In this document: positions 48,332 through 58,460 of the stretch, piece after piece
Layout: the number at the start of each line of letters is the position of its first letter
How positions within the stretch are numbered: the stretch's first letter is position 1
The notes under the pieces: model-generated
Seen by the model: only the letters and a program-made list of their open reading frames with translations
Databases searched by the model: none
What the model was told of the DNA's origin: nothing
Program-made: the position numbers and the translations under genes
DNA from: Gluconobacter cerevisiae
GTDB lineage: Bacteria > Pseudomonadota > Alphaproteobacteria > Acetobacterales > Acetobacteraceae
Direction: 5' to 3'
Length of the DNA: 64,000 bases
NCBI RefSeq assembly: GCF_015244675.1
Contig: NZ_JABCQO010000002.1
Location: 1 to 64,000, forward strand

Positions 48332-51300
48332 TCAACGTGGCGCGGCGGGTTGCTGGGCCGGGAAGGGAGCCGGTTTCAGGGTTGGGCGCGGATGGTCGGC
48401 CATATCCTTGCGCAGCCATGTGAGGGCGGCGTCAAGCTGCTGGTCCTGTCCGTTGAAGGTGGCGACCGGCATGTTCTCGACTTCGATGTCCGGAGAGACA
48501 CCTTTGTTCTCGACCAACCATTGTCCGTTCAGGTCAAAATACGGATTTTCGGCCGTGCGGGCATTACCGTTGTCGATCAGGCGGTCTCCGTCCGAGAGCC
48601 AGACGCCCGCGCCTGCGGTACGCTCTCCGAGAAGAGGAGCGATATGCAGGGATTTGATGCCCTGCGAGAAGGTCTCCCCGTCCGAGTAGGTCATTTCATC
48701 GGACAGAACGATCAGACGCCCCTGAAAAGACTGCTGCATGTCCACCGACGGTGCGTTGCCGTAGCGACCCCAGAACATCCACGGGCGACGCATGAGCTGG
48801 GTGAGGACCCAGCTGTCGATATTGCCGCCCGTGTTGCCGCGGACGTCCACGATCAGGCCGTCCTTGTCGATATTGGCATAGAACTCGCGGGCAAATGCTT
48901 CCATGTCGTCACCGACCATGGATTGCAGATGCAGATAACCGACGCGGCCGTGGCTGGCGCGATCGACGATATCCGCGCGACTGACTTCCCAGTCCCGCGC
49001 GCGCAAATCACGCTCTTTCATATAAGACACGGGCGTCACGATAATCTTGTGGTCTTTCCCGCCGCGCGAGAGCGTCAGGAGAACTTGCTTTCCGGCCTGA
49101 TCGGCAAGGAGCGAGCCGAGGTCGGGCTGGCCTGCGGTCGACTGACCGTTGACGGCGGTGATGAGGTCACCGTTCCGGGCGTCCACGCCGGGGGCGGCTA
49201 GCGGCGATTGCTGGTCGGGAAGGTCGCGGTCGCCCTGATAAATGTGGTCGATCCGGAAACCCTTGTCCTCATGCGTCAGATGCGCGCCGAGGCCTGCAAT
49301 GAGGCTGGAAGCGGGTTGGTCGACGGTCGTGGGGGCGTGGAGCTGCGAGTGCATTGCGCCGATTTCCGCGACCATCTGACCGAGCAGATCGTCGAGATCC
49401 GCACGGTCGCCGAGACGGTCCACGAACGGTGCGAAATGCGCCCGCACGGCTTTCCAGTCCACGCCGTGCAGGTCGCGGTCATAGTAATGGTCGCGGTGCA
49501 GGCGCCAAGCATCCACGAATTCGTCCGACCACTCCTGTCCAGGGTCGATCCGCAGACGCAGATGATCAAGCTCGATCTTTTTGCCGTCCAGTTCCTTGGG
49601 CTGCTTCTCGCCAGTGGGCGTCAGGAGCAGTTCCGGCGCGTTCTTACCGCGACGGCTGAGGGTCAGCAGGGTCTTGCCGTCCGGGGTGATGTCGAAATCC
49701 GAAATCTTGGCGGCGTAGGTTTCGATTTTATGCTCGTTATTGTCGATATGGATCGACTTCAGATCGCCCGGACCGTCGCCTGAGCCGGAATTGTCGATCG
49801 TGAAAAGATAGTCGTCAGAGACGCCGAGGCCTTCATAGTCTCCCGCTGGAATCGGAGCCTGATAGAGACGTGTGGCGATCCCAGCCCATTCGATGGCGGG
49901 AAGGGATTTTTTCTTGTCGCCGTCTTTCTTCTTGTCGTCCTTTTTATCGGCGTCGGCCTTCTTGTCCGCCGGGTCCAGTTCGGTTGCGGGCTGAAACGGG
50001 AAGCGTTCGCCGGATTGAAGAGCGAGGGCGTAGATGCCGGTGCGTTTTGGGAAGGCTGGTCCGATATTACGGTCTCCCCAGGGCGAGCCGTTGGCGAGCG
50101 AGAACGTGCGGTCTGACAGGAACCACAGCCATTTTCCGTCCGGGGAGAAGCTGGGCGTATAGGATTCGTAGCGCCCGTCCGTCACCCAGTTCGACTGGCC
50201 CGTGGCGGGAACGTAAAGGGCGATCTGCCGACGCAGATTCGTGCCGCGTGTGCGGACGTAAGCCAAAACGTGTCCATCCGGGGACCATGAGACGGAGTCA
50301 AAGACGTTGGTGCCGTCCACGGTGGCATTGTCGACCAGCTTGTCGGCCTTGGTGGATAGGTCCGTCAGCCAAAGGCGACCCAGAAGATCGGTATGGGCGG
50401 CGTATTTGCCATCCGGCGAGAGGGATAGGGACACAGGTTCGGTGGATGAGGGCTGGGTGATGGCCTCACCCTTGCCGCTGCCATCGGCTGCAAAACGCCA
50501 CAGGGCGGAATCGCCGCCCACATCGCTAAAGGCGATGACGGATCTGCCGTCCGGCGTGATCTGGGCCAGACGCAGGCGCACGTTGTCAGGCGTTGCTAGC
50601 ACAACGACCCGGCGGGGCGAGGCTCCGGCGATCACGACATGACCGCGCATGGTAAAGGCGGCGGCGTCCCCCTTTGGCGAAATGATCGAAGACGTCAGGA
50701 AGCGCGTTGGCTTTTCCAGCCAGTACGGGCTGCGGGGCAGGTTGTCGGAGGTCAGGTCCACCTTGACGGGGGTGGTCTCACCGCTGGCCAGATTGAAATC
50801 GAACAGGTCCGCGCCTTTGCGGAAGACGATGTGATCGCCGGAAATAGCGGCTTCGAGAACGCTGTAATCCGTGAAATGGGTGAGCTGTTTCGCGTCCGAG
50901 CCATCGGTGGCGAGGCTCCACAGATTGTAGCGGCCGTTCTCGTCGGAAATGACGATCAGGCGGTCACGCCAGGGCATCGGGCGGATCAGGTTGGCGTCAT
51001 GCGTGCCGATGCGCTCGGCTTCCTTACCGTTCTGAAGATCGAAGCGCCAGAGCTGGGATAGGGCGCCCCCGCGATAGGCGCGCATATGATCGCCGGTCGT
51101 GGCGAGGCCAAAGCGGACGGCGTAAAGCCAGTGTCCGTCCGGGCTGAGAGCGGCATCGTTCGCGCCGGAAAGCGGGAAGATGCGTGTTGCGCCGGTTTTC
51201 GGATCTATGGCCGAAACGGTTTGGCTGTAATAGGGGCCGGTTGCGGCAGGGCTGGCATAGAGCACTCCGGCATGTGCGTCCCAACCGATGATCTTCAGGC

Positions 51301-51652
51301 GGGCGACGTTCTCGAATGTCAGACGGCGCGGCGTGCCGCCATTGCGGGGCATGACGTAGATTTCGGTCGGACCATCAAAATTGGCGGCGAAGGCGATCTG
51401 GGTGCCGTCGGGGGAAATGACGGGGTGCGGGTCGATGGCGTTGGCGCCCTGCGGCACGGTCGTCAGGCGCTGGGCCTGGCCGCCTGCGAGGGGAACGCTC
51501 CAGACGGACTGTTCGGCGTTGAACAGGACGGTCTGGCCGGAAATCGAGGGTTCACGCAGATAGCCCGGTTCGGCCTGAGCAACGCCGAGGCCCAGCCCCA
51601 TCAAGGCTGCGCAGGACAGGAGGGAGCTTCTGAGAGAGGGGCGTTGGGGCAT
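48332..51652 (-). CDS. tricorn-like S41 peptidase, exported
   Basis: The 1106-residue protein has a signal peptide (cleavage near GVAQA), a TolB/PD40 beta-propeller region with repeated SPDG motifs (residues ~60-560), a lysine/aspartate-rich insert near residue 560, a PDZ-like domain around residue 800, and the S41/tricorn catalytic core. The core contains VDVRGNTGGNIDSW and the nucleophile candidate Ser in MTYSDGETFS. The His of the tricorn Ser-His pair is in IGAMHSQL, with Met where tricorn has Ser. It should trim peptides in the periplasm. Inverted repeats occupy its promoter region. Confidence 0.9.
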   Translation of the reverse strand: MPQRPSLRSSLLSCAALMGLGLGVAQAEPGYLREPSISGQTVLFNAEQSVWSVPLAGGQAQRLTTVPQGANAIDPHPVISPDGTQIAFAANFDGPTEIYVMPRNGGTPRRLTFENVARLKIIGWDAHAGVLYASPAATGPYYSQTVSAIDPKTGATRIFPLSGANDAALSPDGHWLYAVRFGLATTGDHMRAYRGGALSQLWRFDLQNGKEAERIGTHDANLIRPMPWRDRLIVISDENGRYNLWSLATDGSDAKQLTHFTDYSVLEAAISGDHIVFRKGADLFDFNLASGETTPVKVDLTSDNLPRSPYWLEKPTRFLTSSIISPKGDAAAFTMRGHVVIAGASPRRVVVLATPDNVRLRLAQITPDGRSVIAFSDVGGDSALWRFAADGSGKGEAITQPSSTEPVSLSLSPDGKYAAHTDLLGRLWLTDLSTKADKLVDNATVDGTNVFDSVSWSPDGHVLAYVRTRGTNLRRQIALYVPATGQSNWVTDGRYESYTPSFSPDGKWLWFLSDRTFSLANGSPWGDRNIGPAFPKRTGIYALALQSGERFPFQPATELDPADKKADADKKDDKKKDGDKKKSLPAIEWAGIATRLYQAPIPAGDYEGLGVSDDYLFTIDNSGSGDGPGDLKSIHIDNNEHKIETYAAKISDFDITPDGKTLLTLSRRGKNAPELLLTPTGEKQPKELDGKKIELDHLRLRIDPGQEWSDEFVDAWRLHRDHYYDRDLHGVDWKAVRAHFAPFVDRLGDRADLDDLLGQMVAEIGAMHSQLHAPTTVDQPASSLIAGLGAHLTHEDKGFRIDHIYQGDRDLPDQQSPLAAPGVDARNGDLITAVNGQSTAGQPDLGSLLADQAGKQVLLTLSRGGKDHKIIVTPVSYMKERDLRARDWEVSRADIVDRASHGRVGYLHLQSMVGDDMEAFAREFYANIDKDGLIVDVRGNTGGNIDSWVLTQLMRRPWMFWGRYGNAPSVDMQQSFQGRLIVLSDEMTYSDGETFSQGIKSLHIAPLLGERTAGAGVWLSDGDRLIDNGNARTAENPYFDLNGQWLVENKGVSPDIEVENMPVATFNGQDQQLDAALTWLRKDMADHPRPTLKPAPFPAQQPAAPR

Positions 51653-53302: not shown

Positions 53303-54049
53303 GTGCTACAGGCGAGTGGTATCGCCAAGTCTTTTGGTGGGAACGAGGTTCTGAAGGGCCTGTCGCTCGATGTGGAGCGTGGGGAGCTGATCTCGATGAT
53401 CGGACCTTCGGGATGTGGAAAATCCACGTTCCTGCGCTGCCTCAATTTTCTGGAACATCCGGATGCGGGTTCTGTCCGGATCGAGGATGTGACGGTCGCG
53501 CGCGCGGGGAAGCACTGGAGCCGCGCCAATGAGGCCGAGGCCCATAAGCTGCGCGCGCATGTCGGGATGGTGTTTCAGGCCTTCAACCTGTTTCCCCATC
53601 GTACGGTGCTCGACAATGTTATGATGGCCCCGATCCAAGTCAAGAAGATGTCCCGTGACGAGGCGCAGTCCATTGCCTGCGAGCTTCTGGAAAAGGTCGG
53701 TCTTGCCGCGACCAAGGATCGCTATCCGGACAGTCTTTCGGGCGGGCAGAAACAGCGCGCGGCCATTGCGCGCGCGCTCGCGATGAAGCCGTCCGTCATG
53801 CTGTATGACGAGCCGACTTCCGCGCTCGACCCCGAGCTTTCCGAGGAAGTCCTGTCCGTGATGCGAGCGCTGGACGATGATGGCATGACGCAGCTTGTGG
53901 TGACGCATGACATGCGCTTTGCACGCGCCGCCTCTGACCGCGTTCTCTTTGTGGAGGGCGGAGAAATTGTTGAAAGCGGTGATCCGGACCTGATGTTCGC
54001 CAACCCCCGGGAGGGACGGACACGCCAGTTCCTGCGGACCTTGCTGTGA
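53303..54049 (+). CDS. polar amino acid ABC importer ATPase
   Basis: The 248-residue GlnQ/HisP-type ATPase has Walker A GPSGCGKST, Q-loop VFQAFNLFPH, signature LSGGQKQRAAIARALA, Walker B VMLYDEPTSALD and the H-loop TH. A 7-residue insert (ARAGKHWSR region) lies before the Q-loop, as in some members. GTG 53303 is assumed because the family begins LxxxGIxKSFG; the frame is open further upstream. It pairs with the fused gene next to it (TGATG). Confidence 0.9.
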   Translation: MLQASGIAKSFGGNEVLKGLSLDVERGELISMIGPSGCGKSTFLRCLNFLEHPDAGSVRIEDVTVARAGKHWSRANEAEAHKLRAHVGMVFQAFNLFPHRTVLDNVMMAPIQVKKMSRDEAQSIACELLEKVGLAATKDRYPDSLSGGQKQRAAIARALAMKPSVMLYDEPTSALDPELSEEVLSVMRALDDDGMTQLVVTHDMRFARAASDRVLFVEGGEIVESGDPDLMFANPREGRTRQFLRTLL

Positions 54050-55581
54050 TGAAGAAATTTTTTGCGCTGGTGCTGGCTCTTGCGGTCAGTCCCGTATCGT
54101 TTGCGCTGGCGGATACACCTCCGGTTGCTGCACCACAGGAGCTACTCTGGGCTTCGGATGGTGAGGCGAACGTGCCTTACGTTTTTCATGATCCCGCTCA
54201 TGAATCGCGAATGACCGGCTTTGAATACGATCTGGCCGATGCGATCGCGGAGCGGATGCACCGTAAGGCGAAGTTTATCCAGAATGACTGGGATGGTCTG
54301 ATTCCCGGTCTGTCCCGCGGGCTGTACGGCATGGTGCTGGACGGCATCGAAATGACGCCGGAGCACAAGGCGGCCGTTCTGTTCTCACGTCCTTATTATG
54401 TCACGAGCGAGCGGATCATCGTCCGGCATGATCAGACCGGGCTGGATACGATGGAAGCCCTCAAGGGTCATACCGTCGGGACGATCAAGGACACGACGGC
54501 GGAGCGGATGCTGCGCCGACAGGGCGGCTCGAATGTGCGCTCCTATGAAGAAGAGACGAATGCGTTCTCGGATCTGCGGAACGGGCGGCTGGATGCGATC
54601 CTGCTCGATGCTCCGATTGCACTTTATTATGGCAGCATCTCGCCGGACATGAAGCTCGTGGGCGAGCCGATTGGCAGCATGGAATACGGGATCGCGTTCT
54701 CGCCGGAAAACCGGGAACTGCGCGACCAGGTGGATGCGGCGCTCGGCGAGGTCATCAAGGACGGAACGCTGCATCGCATTCTGGCGCGCTGGAACCTGTG
54801 GACGCCGCTGATGGCGAACTATACGGGCGACAACAGCCATCCGGATATCGCGCCGACGGAATGGAACCGGTATCAGGAAGCCATGGCGAACACGACCGGC
54901 AGTGGCTGGCGTGTTCTGATGCGGCGCTATGTGAGTTTCCTGCCGTTGATCGGGCAGGCGGCGTTGATGACCCTTGCGGTTTCGGCGCTGGCCATGGTTC
55001 TGGCTGTGGCGCTGGGGCTTCTGCTGGCGCTGGCCCGGCATTATGGCCCTGCTCCGCTGCGCTTTGTTGCGGGGATCTATGTCGAGGTCGTGCGCGGGAC
55101 GCCGCTTCTGATTCAGGTGCTGTTCATTTTCTATGGGCTGCCCGCCTTCGGAATCCGCCTGTCGCCCTTCGTGGCGGGTGTGATTTCGCTGGGTCTGAAC
55201 TATGCGGCCTATGAGGCGGAAAACTACCGTGCCGGGCTTCTTTCCGTGCCGCGCGGGCAGATGGAAGCGGCGATTGCACTCAACATGACGCACTGGCAAG
55301 CGTTGCGGCTGGTGATCGTGCCGCAGGCATTCCGGACGGTCGTGCCGGTCATGACCAATGATTTCATTTCGCTGCTTAAGGATAGTTCGCTCGTCTCCGT
55401 CATTACGCTGACAGAGCTCAGTCAGACCTATGTGCGATTGTCCTCGACCTATTACGATTATTTTGGAACGGGAATCATGGTCGGCATGGCGTATCTGCTG
55501 CTCGGCCTGCCGTTCGTGCGGCTGGCGCGGATGGCGGAGCGGCGGCTGGGGCGTGGTTTTTCGGGAGCCGGGCACCACTGA
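54049..55581 (+). CDS. amino acid ABC importer: binding protein fused to permease
   Basis: The 510-residue protein has a signal peptide, then a type II periplasmic binding domain (residues ~30-270, with NVPYVFHDP, GFEYDLADAIAERM, and SRPYYVTSERIIV). An inner-membrane permease (residues ~300-505) follows, with the EAA loop in YEAENYRAGLLSVPRGQMEAA, here quoted in part. One polypeptide replaces the separate binding protein and HisQ/GlnP permease. The mature domain is tethered to the membrane outside. ATG 54049 or GTG 54046 are alternative starts. Confidence 0.92.
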   Translation: MKKFFALVLALAVSPVSFALADTPPVAAPQELLWASDGEANVPYVFHDPAHESRMTGFEYDLADAIAERMHRKAKFIQNDWDGLIPGLSRGLYGMVLDGIEMTPEHKAAVLFSRPYYVTSERIIVRHDQTGLDTMEALKGHTVGTIKDTTAERMLRRQGGSNVRSYEEETNAFSDLRNGRLDAILLDAPIALYYGSISPDMKLVGEPIGSMEYGIAFSPENRELRDQVDAALGEVIKDGTLHRILARWNLWTPLMANYTGDNSHPDIAPTEWNRYQEAMANTTGSGWRVLMRRYVSFLPLIGQAALMTLAVSALAMVLAVALGLLLALARHYGPAPLRFVAGIYVEVVRGTPLLIQVLFIFYGLPAFGIRLSPFVAGVISLGLNYAAYEAENYRAGLLSVPRGQMEAAIALNMTHWQALRLVIVPQAFRTVVPVMTNDFISLLKDSSLVSVITLTELSQTYVRLSSTYYDYFGTGIMVGMAYLLLGLPFVRLARMAERRLGRGFSGAGHH

Positions 55582-55602: not shown

Positions 55603-56544
55603 TCAGGATGGCTGAGGTGCGGACGGGTCGTTGATGAGTGGGGGCACGAGCGTTGCCGTATCCAGCGTTCCGTCAAATCCCTGACGCAGTACCCGCGACC
55701 AGCCGATCATCCATCGGTCCAGAGCGTCGATGAACTGGGAAGCTTCGGGATTTTTATGTACCGAAGCCTTGCTCCAGTATTGTTGGGGCGCCAGAAGCTG
55801 GCGTGATCCGCGTTCAATGGGAGCGACCAGCGTCTCGACCGTTTCGATGTGAGCCATGCCATTGCTGGCCGCTGCAGCATAATACCAACCCATATTGATC
55901 ATCAGGTTCGGGATTGGAAAGCCCAGCGTGTGCATTCGGTTAAATGCCGCCGTGATGAATGGGTCGCTGCTGACGCTCTGGTTTTCGAGGACGGCATTGC
56001 CGGTGTAGCTGCATTCCTGCGAGACGTCTGGTTTATCCAAAATATGGGCTGCGTAGTTGCGATCGTCGTGGCAGGGCGTTTCGAGCTGTTCGGCCAGATC
56101 TGCCGGGACAGGCTGCTGCGTGGAGCGTACGACGATGACGCCCGAGACGACTCCGCGATCGGTCCGGGCCAGAACCTGCTGGGAGATTTCGCCATGGGCG
56201 CCACTCCGGGAGGTCAGGATCGGGTGCCAGTCTCCGGCCGGAAGCGGGAGGATGCGTCCGGCAATGGCGATGCTGCCATGCTCGACGATCCCCGGATCGG
56301 GAGCAGCAACCTGGTCGCCAAGATTAGACGCGTCGCCGGTCTGCATCTCCTGCCCGTCCGACTGTGATGCGCCGAAACCCAAGTTACTCCGTGCTGCGCC
56401 TGGCGCACTCCCCGGAAGCCAGGGCATGGCTTTTTTGAGCGCCGGGGTAGGGTAAAAGGCAGTCATGCCCAGCGCGCCCAGTGTTACGATCACGCTGGTG
56501 CGCCATAGTGGCGCTCGTCCCCAGAGCCGTCCAAATGCCGTCAT
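55603..56544 (-). CDS. single-pass membrane protein of unknown function, AAA+ operon
   Basis: The 313-residue protein has one membrane segment at about residues 16-30. The rest (residues 60-313) is probably periplasmic or cytoplasmic and carries a cluster of aromatic residues. Two cysteines lie near residues 163 and 182 (TPCHDDRNY; VSQECSYTG), which could form a disulfide if exported. A segment MINMGWYYAAAASNGMAH is distinctive. No family is recognised. It starts 3 bp after the AAA+ gene stop and closes the three-gene operon. Confidence 0.7.
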   Translation of the reverse strand: MTAFGRLWGRAPLWRTSVIVTLGALGMTAFYPTPALKKAMPWLPGSAPGAARSNLGFGASQSDGQEMQTGDASNLGDQVAAPDPGIVEHGSIAIAGRILPLPAGDWHPILTSRSGAHGEISQQVLARTDRGVVSGVIVVRSTQQPVPADLAEQLETPCHDDRNYAAHILDKPDVSQECSYTGNAVLENQSVSSDPFITAAFNRMHTLGFPIPNLMINMGWYYAAAASNGMAHIETVETLVAPIERGSRQLLAPQQYWSKASVHKNPEASQFIDALDRWMIGWSRVLRQGFDGTLDTATLVPPLINDPSAPQPS

Positions 56545-56547
56545 GGA

Positions 56548-57822
56548 TCAGCGACTCACCCGGCCAAGCTGTACTTCGGAATCGTTGGCGATTTCCGTGG
56601 TTACTGTCCCGTTCTCCTGTGCGACGAGGCGGACGCGTTTGGCGCCTTTCTGGCGTGCGACGATCAGACTTTCGCTGACCATCTCTTCAATGGAGCGGAC
56701 GAGATCGCGTGCACTGGCGCCAGTACCGAGGTTCTTTTGCTTCATCATGACCTGGAACAGAATGCCGGCGTCGATGCCTCCGGTTTCGACATGCAGGCCG
56801 TAGCCTTCAATCATGGCTTCGATTTCCAGCGCAGCGACACGGGCGAGATCCAGTCCGCGCAGGGAGCGGAAAACGAAAATCCGATCCAGCCGGTTGAGAA
56901 CTTCAGGAGCGAATCCGGATTTGCGCAGGGCCTCGACCGACTCGCCGCGCATTTTCTCCGGCTCGTTTGCAAGACGATCGGCAATTTCGGTCAATGCTTC
57001 AGTGGCGACGTTGGAAGTGAGCATGAAGATTGCCCGCGTGGTCGAGACCTGCTCGCCGACGGACGCTTCCGTGACATGACCGTCATTCCAGGCAGTAAGG
57101 AATTTTTTGAAGACATCCGGATGGGCCTTCTCGATCTCGTCGAGCAGGACCACGGCATCTGGATGTTCTTTTAGGCCGCCAGTCAGAGTCCCGAACGTAT
57201 CGGAACCCATATAGCCCTTGGGCGAGCCAAAAAGGAGAGATTCCGCATGCGGACTGGACATCTGCGTCATGTCGAAATGCAGCAGGGGACGTTCCATCTG
57301 TTTCGCCATCTGTTTGGCGAGATAGGTCTTGCCCGTCCCTGGGGGGCCTGCCAGCAGGAAAATACCCACGGGCTTGCCGCGAACCTGAAGCGCCAGACGA
57401 CGGCGCATCTGCTGGGCAATATCCTCGCAGACCTGATCCTGTCCGATCACGCGCGCGCGCAGCGAAGCGGCCAGTTCATCGGCGTCGAGGACGGTTTCGC
57501 GGTGTTCGCGGGCCATGAGCTCTTCAAGGGCTCCGCGGTTCGTCAGACGGCTGAGAACATCCATGATGAGACCTTTCCTGCGGCGCAGTCCACGCCGCGC
57601 CAGTTTTTCGGCTGATGTTTCATATGCCAGCCCAGTGACTGCCAGAAGGGCACTGATCCCTGCCAGCGGAAGATAGAAACGCCGTCCCCATTCGATGGCG
57701 GCCCATAGCCCGTTCAGCGACAGGTGTAGCATGATCGAAACCTGAACTACTGCCAGAATAAGGAAGGCAGCCATCATCAGCGGCATGGCCCGGTTGAGCA
57801 TGGGCACGAGAGACTTGAACAC
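56548..57822 (-). CDS. membrane-anchored Clp-type AAA+ ATPase
   Basis: The 424-residue protein has two transmembrane helices (~12-32, ~50-66), then a single ClpB/ClpA D2-like AAA+ module. Walker A is GPPGTGKT (159-166), Walker B VVLLDE (224-229), with sensor Asn 271, arginine finger candidate Arg311 and sensor 2 GASAR (368-372). A GYMG loop at 203-206 corresponds to the aromatic substrate-threading pore loop, so unfolding activity is plausible. Unlike ClpB it has only one ATPase domain and is membrane-tethered. No protease domain is present. Confidence 0.85.
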   Translation of the reverse strand: MFKSLVPMLNRAMPLMMAAFLILAVVQVSIMLHLSLNGLWAAIEWGRRFYLPLAGISALLAVTGLAYETSAEKLARRGLRRRKGLIMDVLSRLTNRGALEELMAREHRETVLDADELAASLRARVIGQDQVCEDIAQQMRRRLALQVRGKPVGIFLLAGPPGTGKTYLAKQMAKQMERPLLHFDMTQMSSPHAESLLFGSPKGYMGSDTFGTLTGGLKEHPDAVVLLDEIEKAHPDVFKKFLTAWNDGHVTEASVGEQVSTTRAIFMLTSNVATEALTEIADRLANEPEKMRGESVEALRKSGFAPEVLNRLDRIFVFRSLRGLDLARVAALEIEAMIEGYGLHVETGGIDAGILFQVMMKQKNLGTGASARDLVRSIEEMVSESLIVARQKGAKRVRLVAQENGTVTTEIANDSEVQLGRVSR

Positions 57823-57833
57823 CGGGCGGTTCC

Positions 57834-58460
57834 TTACTGGACGATCACGTTGAGCAGGACGCGCTGGTCCAGCGTCGTCAGGGCAGGCAGGGCTTCTGGA
57901 CCGAAAGCTGTGAGGGCACCAACGATCAGAGCGGGTGCATGTGGCATGCTCACCGGGGCAATAAGGATCTGTCCGGCTTCAGCGATTGGAATAACAAGAT
58001 GCTGGAATCTGCCGTTAAGGACAACGCGCTGTGTCAGTCCAGAAGAGACTGTGAGATCGATAGTCTGGCCGACTGCGCCCGAAGCATCCAACACCGGCAT
58101 TTCCACGAGGCGCATCTTGCCATCTTTTACGGCCGCGAGAATGCGGGCCTGATCGTCCGGACTGAAACCGCTCTTGGCAAGTGCGGCCGGCGCTTTGACA
58201 GTGGGAAGCATCGAGAGCTGGACAGCCGCGGTCTGGGCGACGGGCACAGCCGGGCTATTCTGGGAAAGTGGCGCCATTGGAGGTGTTGGTAGTGTCGTCG
58301 TGTTGTGCGTGTAGAAAAAAGCGCCTGCCCCGACCGTCAGGGCCGCAATCAGGCCGCCGCCACCCCACAGAACCCGGTTCCGGGAAGCAGGATCGGCAGG
58401 CAGGGGCTGTAGACGCGGTTCCGGGCGCAGTTCCGGACGGGGCTCGGATGGGAAAGTCAT
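57834..58460 (-). CDS. membrane-anchored protein of unknown function, AAA+ operon
   Basis: The 208-residue product from ATG 58460 has a proline/arginine-rich N-terminal tail, one transmembrane segment (~30-50), a threonine/proline linker, and a soluble domain of about 130 residues. The domain ends in repeated hydrophobic strands (LTVSSGLTQRVVLNG; LIAPVSMPHAPALIVGALTA). The frame stays open to 58628, but that part is low-sense. It is the first gene of the operon, 11 bp before the AAA+ ATPase. It could be an adaptor or receptor for it. Confidence 0.65.
   Translation of the reverse strand: MTFPSEPRPELRPEPRLQPLPADPASRNRVLWGGGGLIAALTVGAGAFFYTHNTTTLPTPPMAPLSQNSPAVPVAQTAAVQLSMLPTVKAPAALAKSGFSPDDQARILAAVKDGKMRLVEMPVLDASGAVGQTIDLTVSSGLTQRVVLNGRFQHLVIPIAEAGQILIAPVSMPHAPALIVGALTAFGPEALPALTTLDQRVLLNVIVQ

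Follow-up and report, generated by a model that had tools for sequence, protein, structure and literature searches.

A candidate protein-remodeling module of acetic acid bacteria that places a membrane-anchored Clp-type ATPase between two predicted bitopic proteins

Introduction

The known Clp-type unfoldases are soluble rings. ClpA and ClpB are double-ring proteins with two AAA+ modules and an N-domain in one chain, the second module belonging to a clade that we take to be HCLR, and an IGF/L-type loop is the ClpP-binding feature of the ClpP-coupled unfoldases ClpA, ClpC, and ClpX. At the membrane, FtsH has two N-terminal helices followed by a cytosolic AAA+ domain, and torsin is a single Clp-like module with the bitopic partners LAP1 and LULL1, which stimulate it. 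Here, we analyze three adjacent minus-strand genes, labeled U, A, and D, at positions 58460-55603 of a 64,000-nucleotide stretch of Gluconobacter cerevisiae DNA (assembly GCF_015244675.1, contig NZ_JABCQO010000002.1), referred to as the window. We see an even chance that their products form a three-part inner-membrane machine for protein remodeling.

A conserved trio of genes in acetic acid bacteria

The three genes are as follows:

57834..58460, minus strand: U, 208 residues, with a proline-rich tail, one membrane segment, and a predicted periplasmic beta domain
56548..57822, minus strand: A, 424 residues, with a GTG start; a membrane-anchored single-module Clp-type AAA+ ATPase
55603..56544, minus strand: D, 313 residues, with a short N-terminal anchor, one membrane helix, and a predicted periplasmic domain

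Gene boundaries, strand, order, and the gaps of 11 bp (U-A) and 3 bp (A-D) are as an earlier note on this DNA had read them. The GTG start of A is replaced by ATG at the same place in close relatives. Species genomes were scanned with A, and the best 80 of 116 loci served as the 80 homologues for U and D. U, A, and D were adjacent in all 80, with U not in one frame in one of them (L032), and because the genes stand side by side in so many loci, their adjacency is more than chance. D was found beside A in 80/80, and U in 75/80 when searched with the window protein and in 80/80 with a profile; U and A overlapped by 4 bp in 52/80, with starts chosen by script.

All 80 loci belong by title to Acetobacteraceae, a family that includes both acetic acid bacteria and acidophiles, and nearly all come from genera that we assign to the acetic acid bacteria. 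In a sample of 249 genomes of the family, A was found in 59 (E<=1e-60) and D in 65 (E<=1e-3). Of the six additional D genomes, G061 and G070 have a diverged A beside D, G049 has D at a contig end, and G011, G063, and G156 have D-domain proteins only, without A. This brings the A-bearing genomes to 61, window included: 59 found through A and two through D. The locus of each A-bearing genome in the family sample was retrieved, and D lies directly downstream of A in 60/60 fetched loci and in the window. Thus, the joint occurrence that the earlier note had proposed to check holds throughout the acetic acid bacteria sampled.

Wider samples, 385 genomes for the class and 398 for the phylum, yielded A at E<=1e-55 in two genomes each, the window's own and G056, both Acetobacteraceae, and thus none outside the family. 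These searches score the best few candidates per genome (seven for the family, four for the class and phylum), and since the degenerate A of G061 and G070 escaped the family scan with A, divergent relatives beyond the family could likewise have gone undetected.

A is a single Clp-type module on a membrane hairpin

A contains one AAA+ module (residues 150-314; Pfam AAA_2 at 5e-35), and its top NCBIfam matches are the second AAA modules of ClpB (165 bits) and ClpA (161 bits). It shares with these an AAA_2 domain and the D2-type motor motifs: Walker motifs, a tyrosine pore loop, an arginine finger, and sensors. The main features are:

57622..57783, minus strand: two-helix membrane hairpin of A, residues 14-67, from hydropathy
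57325..57348, minus strand: Walker A, GPPGTGKT; identical in 134/135 intact-motif rows, GAPGTGKT in one
57199..57228, minus strand: pore loop, GSPKGYMGSD; aromatic in 135/135 intact-motif rows (134 Y, 1 F)
57136..57153, minus strand: Walker B, VVLLDE; DE in 135/135 intact-motif rows

The 135 rows are not 135 genomes, as the 80 species-genome loci and the 54 loci of the family sample partly coincide; L032 and L124, for instance, lie on contigs of the same length. The Walker B region of the window reads VVLLDEIEK. The hairpin consists of hydrophobic stretches at residues 14-32 and 49-67 (Kyte-Doolittle [KD] hydropathy 2.36 and 1.64), followed by a basic stretch. Profiles, motifs, and hydropathy therefore agree with the single, membrane-anchored D2-like module with an aromatic pore loop that had been described from the sequence. 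Among the matches listed, A is 93-94% identical to its counterparts in most Gluconobacter species.

Unlike ClpB and ClpA, A lacks the N-domain and the first AAA module, carrying the membrane hairpin instead. It is 38-39% identical to the ClpB-like and 32% to the ClpA-like protein of the same genome (both named from length and loop), and its 129-165 bits fall far below the NCBIfam cut-offs for ClpA and ClpB (993-1417). We rejected A as a ClpA/B orthologue on the single module and these missed cut-offs. By eye, in the three proteins compared, an IGF/L-type loop was absent from A and from the ClpB-like protein, while the ClpA-like protein has IGF. Because A lacks this motif where the genome's own ClpA-like protein has one, coupling to ClpP is unlikely, and the reading of A as part of a ClpP-coupled protease was rejected. 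No protease family was among the Pfam and NCBIfam matches shown for A, and the chain stops after the small AAA subdomain. The absence of protease coupling proposed earlier is thus supported, and as A has neither a protease domain nor a ClpP-type loop, it more likely remodels or extracts proteins than degrades them.

A shares with FtsH the order of two N-terminal membrane helices and a cytosolic AAA+ domain; unlike FtsH, it has no metalloprotease domain, and the FtsH profile matches only residues 151-179 (21.4 bits, cut-off 600). The trio resembles torsin with LAP1 and LULL1 in pairing a single Clp-like module at the membrane with bitopic partners. Unlike torsin, A keeps an aromatic pore loop, and its Pfam Torsin match stays below the cut-off (24.7 bits versus 27).

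Loss of U coincides with altered motor motifs

The motor motifs of A are intact in 55 of the 61 genomes. U lies upstream of A in 54/54 genomes with intact motifs in which this could be judged (window included); in the 55th, G208, the locus starts inside A at a contig end. Six genomes have no U at the locus (G061, G070, G116, G136, G158, and G201), and a U profile search of these six whole genomes gave a best E of 0.095. Altered motifs were found in exactly these six. In all of them, the last threonine of Walker A is replaced, with the lysine kept, and the pore-loop aromatic is gone. The Walker B pair DE has become QN, DG, KE, NE, ED, and ED, and the arginine-finger motif is lost in 4/6. Nevertheless, the reading frame of A is whole in 6/6, and a D with its anchor motif adjoins.

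In the degenerate A, divergence is strongest in the nucleotide-binding core. Compared with five hand-picked divergent intact forms, identity to the consensus is similar in the membrane hairpin (degenerate 0.23-0.40, intact 0.23-0.50), overlaps in the N-box (0.53-0.81 versus 0.58-0.97), and drops in the nucleotide-binding core (0.30-0.50 versus 0.62-0.88). As the absence of U goes with altered catalytic motifs in A, U appears tied to catalysis, and could be either a substrate or an activator.

A few loci have broken frames. The frame of A is not whole in G126 and G165. In G126 (L101: 3460-5789), a frame break interrupts the N-terminal part of A, and D is divided among three frames; NusA, RimP, and the ABC transporter, in contrast, appear whole. 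U lies 291 bp off, since the N-terminus of A is in another frame. Either the trio is decaying here or the sequence has local errors. In G165 (L097: 3680-4776), A runs over two frames with a profile match from position 74, which could be a draft error or a truncated form. Separately, G101 has a U in two frames beside intact A motifs, and both of its genus mates lack U and have a degenerate A, so that U may go first.

Repeated loss and selection on a degenerate motor

For a tree, 53 loci were selected, and NusA was found in 46; the others were L145-L150, from other genera, and L130, a short piece. On the resulting tree (47 rows), the U/motor trait changes four times. Placing the six degenerate genomes in one clade was rejected (approximately unbiased test, p-AU 2e-78), whereas grouping g61 with g70 was not (p 0.23), so that loss of U with alteration of the motor motifs is counted as three to four events. 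A tree of D (22 rows) agrees with the NusA tree. Within genera, G116 has the intact-motif mate G029, and G158 and G201 have G101.

Between G158 and G201, the ratio of nonsynonymous to synonymous substitution rates (dN/dS) is 0.057 for the degenerate A and 0.058 for D, compared to 0.016-0.085 for A in five intact pairs. At silent sites, the other three degenerate-A pairs are at or near saturation (L093-L100 gives 0.128 at a dS of 2.8). The degenerate A is thus under purifying selection in the one measurable pair. Since A and D are retained after U is gone, with constraint in this pair and with hairpin and N-box of A about as conserved as in intact forms, A seems to have a structural role that needs no ATP turnover and is shared with D, provided that the degenerate forms are indeed inactive, as their motifs suggest.

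An anchor motif sets the D of the trio apart

The features of D are:

56500..56526, minus strand: anchor motif LWGRAPLWR, residues 7-15, on the predicted cytosolic side; LWxxAxxWR conserved
56455..56511, minus strand: presumed membrane helix, residues 12-30; helical in the model, and supported by homologue hydropathy
55666..56286, minus strand: outer domain, residues 87-293, with a Mog1/PsbP/DcrB-like fold in a confident model; VIA-align Z up to 8.2
56071..56073, minus strand: Cys158, candidate disulfide; cysteine in 80/80 homologues
56011..56013, minus strand: Cys178, candidate disulfide; cysteine in 80/80 homologues

LWxxAxxWR was found in 140/141 trio loci, including the six degenerate ones; the exception, L133, has its first W changed to R. 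These loci overlap between samples, and one of them is L104, whose A falls past the end of the contig. The motif occurred in 0/18 other open reading frames (ORFs) with a D-type domain. Relatives of the outer domain were detected at E<=1e-6 in 13 of 288 other genomes of the class, 11 of which were read at the locus level, and in a few genomes of the family. Outside the trio, they mostly start with what looks by eye like a signal peptide or lipoprotein sequence; of six scanned, two carry DUF2061 and one SHOCT. Because the motif is confined to the D of the trio, motif and membrane helix together would be what adapts an otherwise general secreted domain to partnership with A. The earlier note had counted homologues of the flanking genes scattered without the ATPase as evidence against a module. 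Such scatter exists for the outer domain of D only, in ORFs without the anchor motif; a stand-alone U was sought in nine genomes.

D-type domains appear to belong to an unnamed family of secreted domains in the class, with duplication in some cases (L155). In L086 (3671-5053), the domain is C-terminal to a half that by eye resembles a ClpP-like protease, with no Pfam match, and in L085 (3928-5919) and L159 (1432-2412), it is followed by a DUF2061 membrane segment.

The model of D has a mean predicted local distance difference test score (pLDDT) of 85.5, and it fits, as does hydropathy, the large outside domain that had been proposed. Residues 87-293 matched Mog1p (Z 8.2, root-mean-square deviation 4.3, 150 aligned), CyanoP (7.8), DcrB (7.3), and LpqN (6.5), which we group as one superfamily. 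As several of its members run through the match list, we lean toward placing the outer domain in this Mog1/PsbP-like superfamily, although a Z near 8 can also reflect a common arrangement. Unlike the proteins of that group, whose fold it may share, D is predicted to be bitopic and carries an anchor motif linked to the ATPase; it has no sequence match among solved structures. Foldseek returned nothing for the D model at E<=0.001. Its top rank, GntR effector domains (E 0.006), was set aside for low TM-scores and a Z below that of the Mog1/PsbP group.

U is predicted to reach across the membrane

The features of U are:

58374..58460, minus strand: proline-rich N-terminal tail, residues 1-29, predicted cytosolic; PxP in the first 15 residues in 75/80 homologues
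58314..58370, minus strand: presumed membrane segment, residues 31-49, from homologue hydropathy; low pLDDT in the model
57837..58238, minus strand: predicted beta-rich outer domain, residues 75-208; AlphaFold2 pLDDT 78-96 per ten-residue block

As had been reported from the sequence, U and D belong to no recognized family: none of the four profile libraries searched (Pfam, NCBIfam, PADLOC, and PHROGs) matched either protein at E<=1. Singly scanned against Pfam, 45 D and 43 U homologues gave no family, with scattered matches at E 0.013-0.1. Among solved structures, profile searches at E<=1 found no match for D and one for U (E 0.2).

The N-terminal segments of U and D are only moderately hydrophobic, staying below KD 1.6 in the window proteins; the sole stretch of U above this value, residues 165-183, lies inside the predicted beta domain. 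Among the 80 homologues, the segment reaches KD 1.3 in 79 U and 79 D, and KD 1.6 in 54 U and 39 D. Mean net charge before and after the segment is +1.1/-0.2 for U and +3.1/+1.9 for D, the latter a weak indication of topology. The bulk of U follows the segment (median 158 residues, versus 23 before it). The adaptor role that the earlier note had inferred for U is thus not supported, taken in the cytosolic Clp sense.

Structure matches of U were weak and non-specific, pointing to a common beta-sandwich (best Z 6.8, CBM60), and were not used as evidence. No AAA-like or Clp-adaptor fold was among those listed, which proves nothing.

A proposed remodeling machine and its alternatives

We propose that A acts as the motor: an AAA+ module of the Clp/ClpB-D2 type, held on a helical hairpin, that most likely forms a hexamer on the cytosolic face and would thread protein by its tyrosine pore loop, without a protease of its own. 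The co-loss pattern suggests that U goes with the running motor and D with A as such. D would be the standing partner, docked to A by the LWxxAxxWR motif and membrane helix, with its Mog1/PsbP-like domain working in the periplasm. U would be the motor-dependent partner, bitopic, with a proline-rich cytosolic tail and a periplasmic beta domain. Most likely, U is pulled on or remodeled by A, as substrate or moving part, since a proline-rich tail would suit a threading motor as a handle; an activator of A is our second choice. A and D would keep a further role independent of ATP turnover, as both are retained in genomes that have lost U and carry altered catalytic motifs.

More tentatively, and with the balance somewhat against it, the trio could be a trans-envelope machine specific to this lineage: a Clp-type ring on the cytosolic side would act through the membrane, working on the proline-rich tail of the bitopic U to drive a periplasmic action together with the anchored Mog1-fold D, and loss of U in three to four lineages would have left an ATPase-dead A-D scaffold. 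A Clp-type unfoldase that is membrane-anchored, lacks a protease, and has two dedicated bitopic partners would give bacteria a new means of transmitting force from ATP across the inner membrane. The co-loss predicts that deletion of U resembles a Walker B mutant of A, and that both differ from deletions of A or D. As a knockout collection of Gluconobacter oxydans has been described (PMC8602642), this prediction can be tested.

Several points weigh against the proposal. Contacts among A, U, and D, their assembly, and their activity are predictions, and the topology of U and D is predicted from hydropathy and charge. The degenerate A is not clear-cut dead: the Walker A lysine is kept in 6/6, and in G158 and G201 the arginine-finger motif is still present and the Walker B pair, ED, still acidic. 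Outside the core, identity falls too, if less, in the linker (0.32-0.48 versus 0.47-0.73) and in the small subdomain (0.40-0.49 versus 0.51-0.75). In G101 (L124: 3800-4347), a frame-broken U, in two overlapping frames, lies beside an A with intact motifs. The co-loss amounts to two independent pairs on well-supported branches (four on all), too few for a test, and this count used the same labels for both traits, so that it counts pairs and tests nothing. Finally, each of the six degenerate genomes is of small size (1.9-2.4 Mb), and general genome reduction may contribute.

The alternative that survives best, improbable as we consider it, is that U is an obligate activator of the ATPase rather than its substrate, as LAP1 and LULL1 are for torsin; without U, the ATPase would be useless and decay. 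The same co-loss data fit this reading, as does the single Clp-type module with its sub-threshold Torsin match. However, the aromatic in the pore loop of every intact-motif row makes A look like a threading motor, and most of U is predicted to lie across the membrane from the ATPase.

Somewhat less probable still is a general function of A in extracting membrane proteins or as an unfoldase in quality control, comparable to Msp1 or to FtsH without its protease, with U and D as accessories and the co-loss due to genome reduction only. This would account for the architecture of two membrane helices followed by AAA+, and for the small size of the six degenerate genomes. Other small genomes, however, keep both U and the motifs (five of g33, 1.9-2.0 Mb; G029, 1.9 Mb), D adjoins A in all fetched loci, and the measurable degenerate A is under purifying selection beside D, all of which speak against this reading.

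A mobile, defense, or conflict system is very improbable and was rejected: Clp-like ATPases do occur in candidate defense systems (PADLOC PDC-M37B matches A as an ATPase over part of its length, E 5.9e-24), but the trio sits at a constant position, flanked by rimP-nusA and an amino-acid ABC transporter, in the window and in 7/7 acetic-acid-type loci listed (L090-L094, L100, and L101), its distribution and trees look vertical, and the window D, the one protein searched there, matched none of 72,556 plasmid and 50,697 phage records at E<=1e-5. No anti-phage system catalogued in PADLOC-DB 2023 is matched by all three proteins, A being the only one with a match there.

A role in acid tolerance came into consideration, since acetic acid bacteria and acidophiles belong to the family. 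A role in the assembly of membrane-bound dehydrogenases was also considered, with no evidence found here. A literature search named no such module in titles or abstract openings among the matches listed, and the word "ATPase" is absent from the passages of PMC8602642 and PMC10727944 that were searched.

Neighboring genes

The amino-acid ABC transporter of the window is encoded at 53303-54049 and 54046-55581, both on the plus strand, by an ATPase gene and what appears by eye to be a 511-residue binding protein-permease fusion. Similar transporter genes adjoin the trio in seven related loci. Further along, at 48332-51652 on the minus strand, lies a gene for a secreted protein of 1106 residues that by eye has the look of a tricorn-type protease, with beta-propeller, PDZ, and protease parts.

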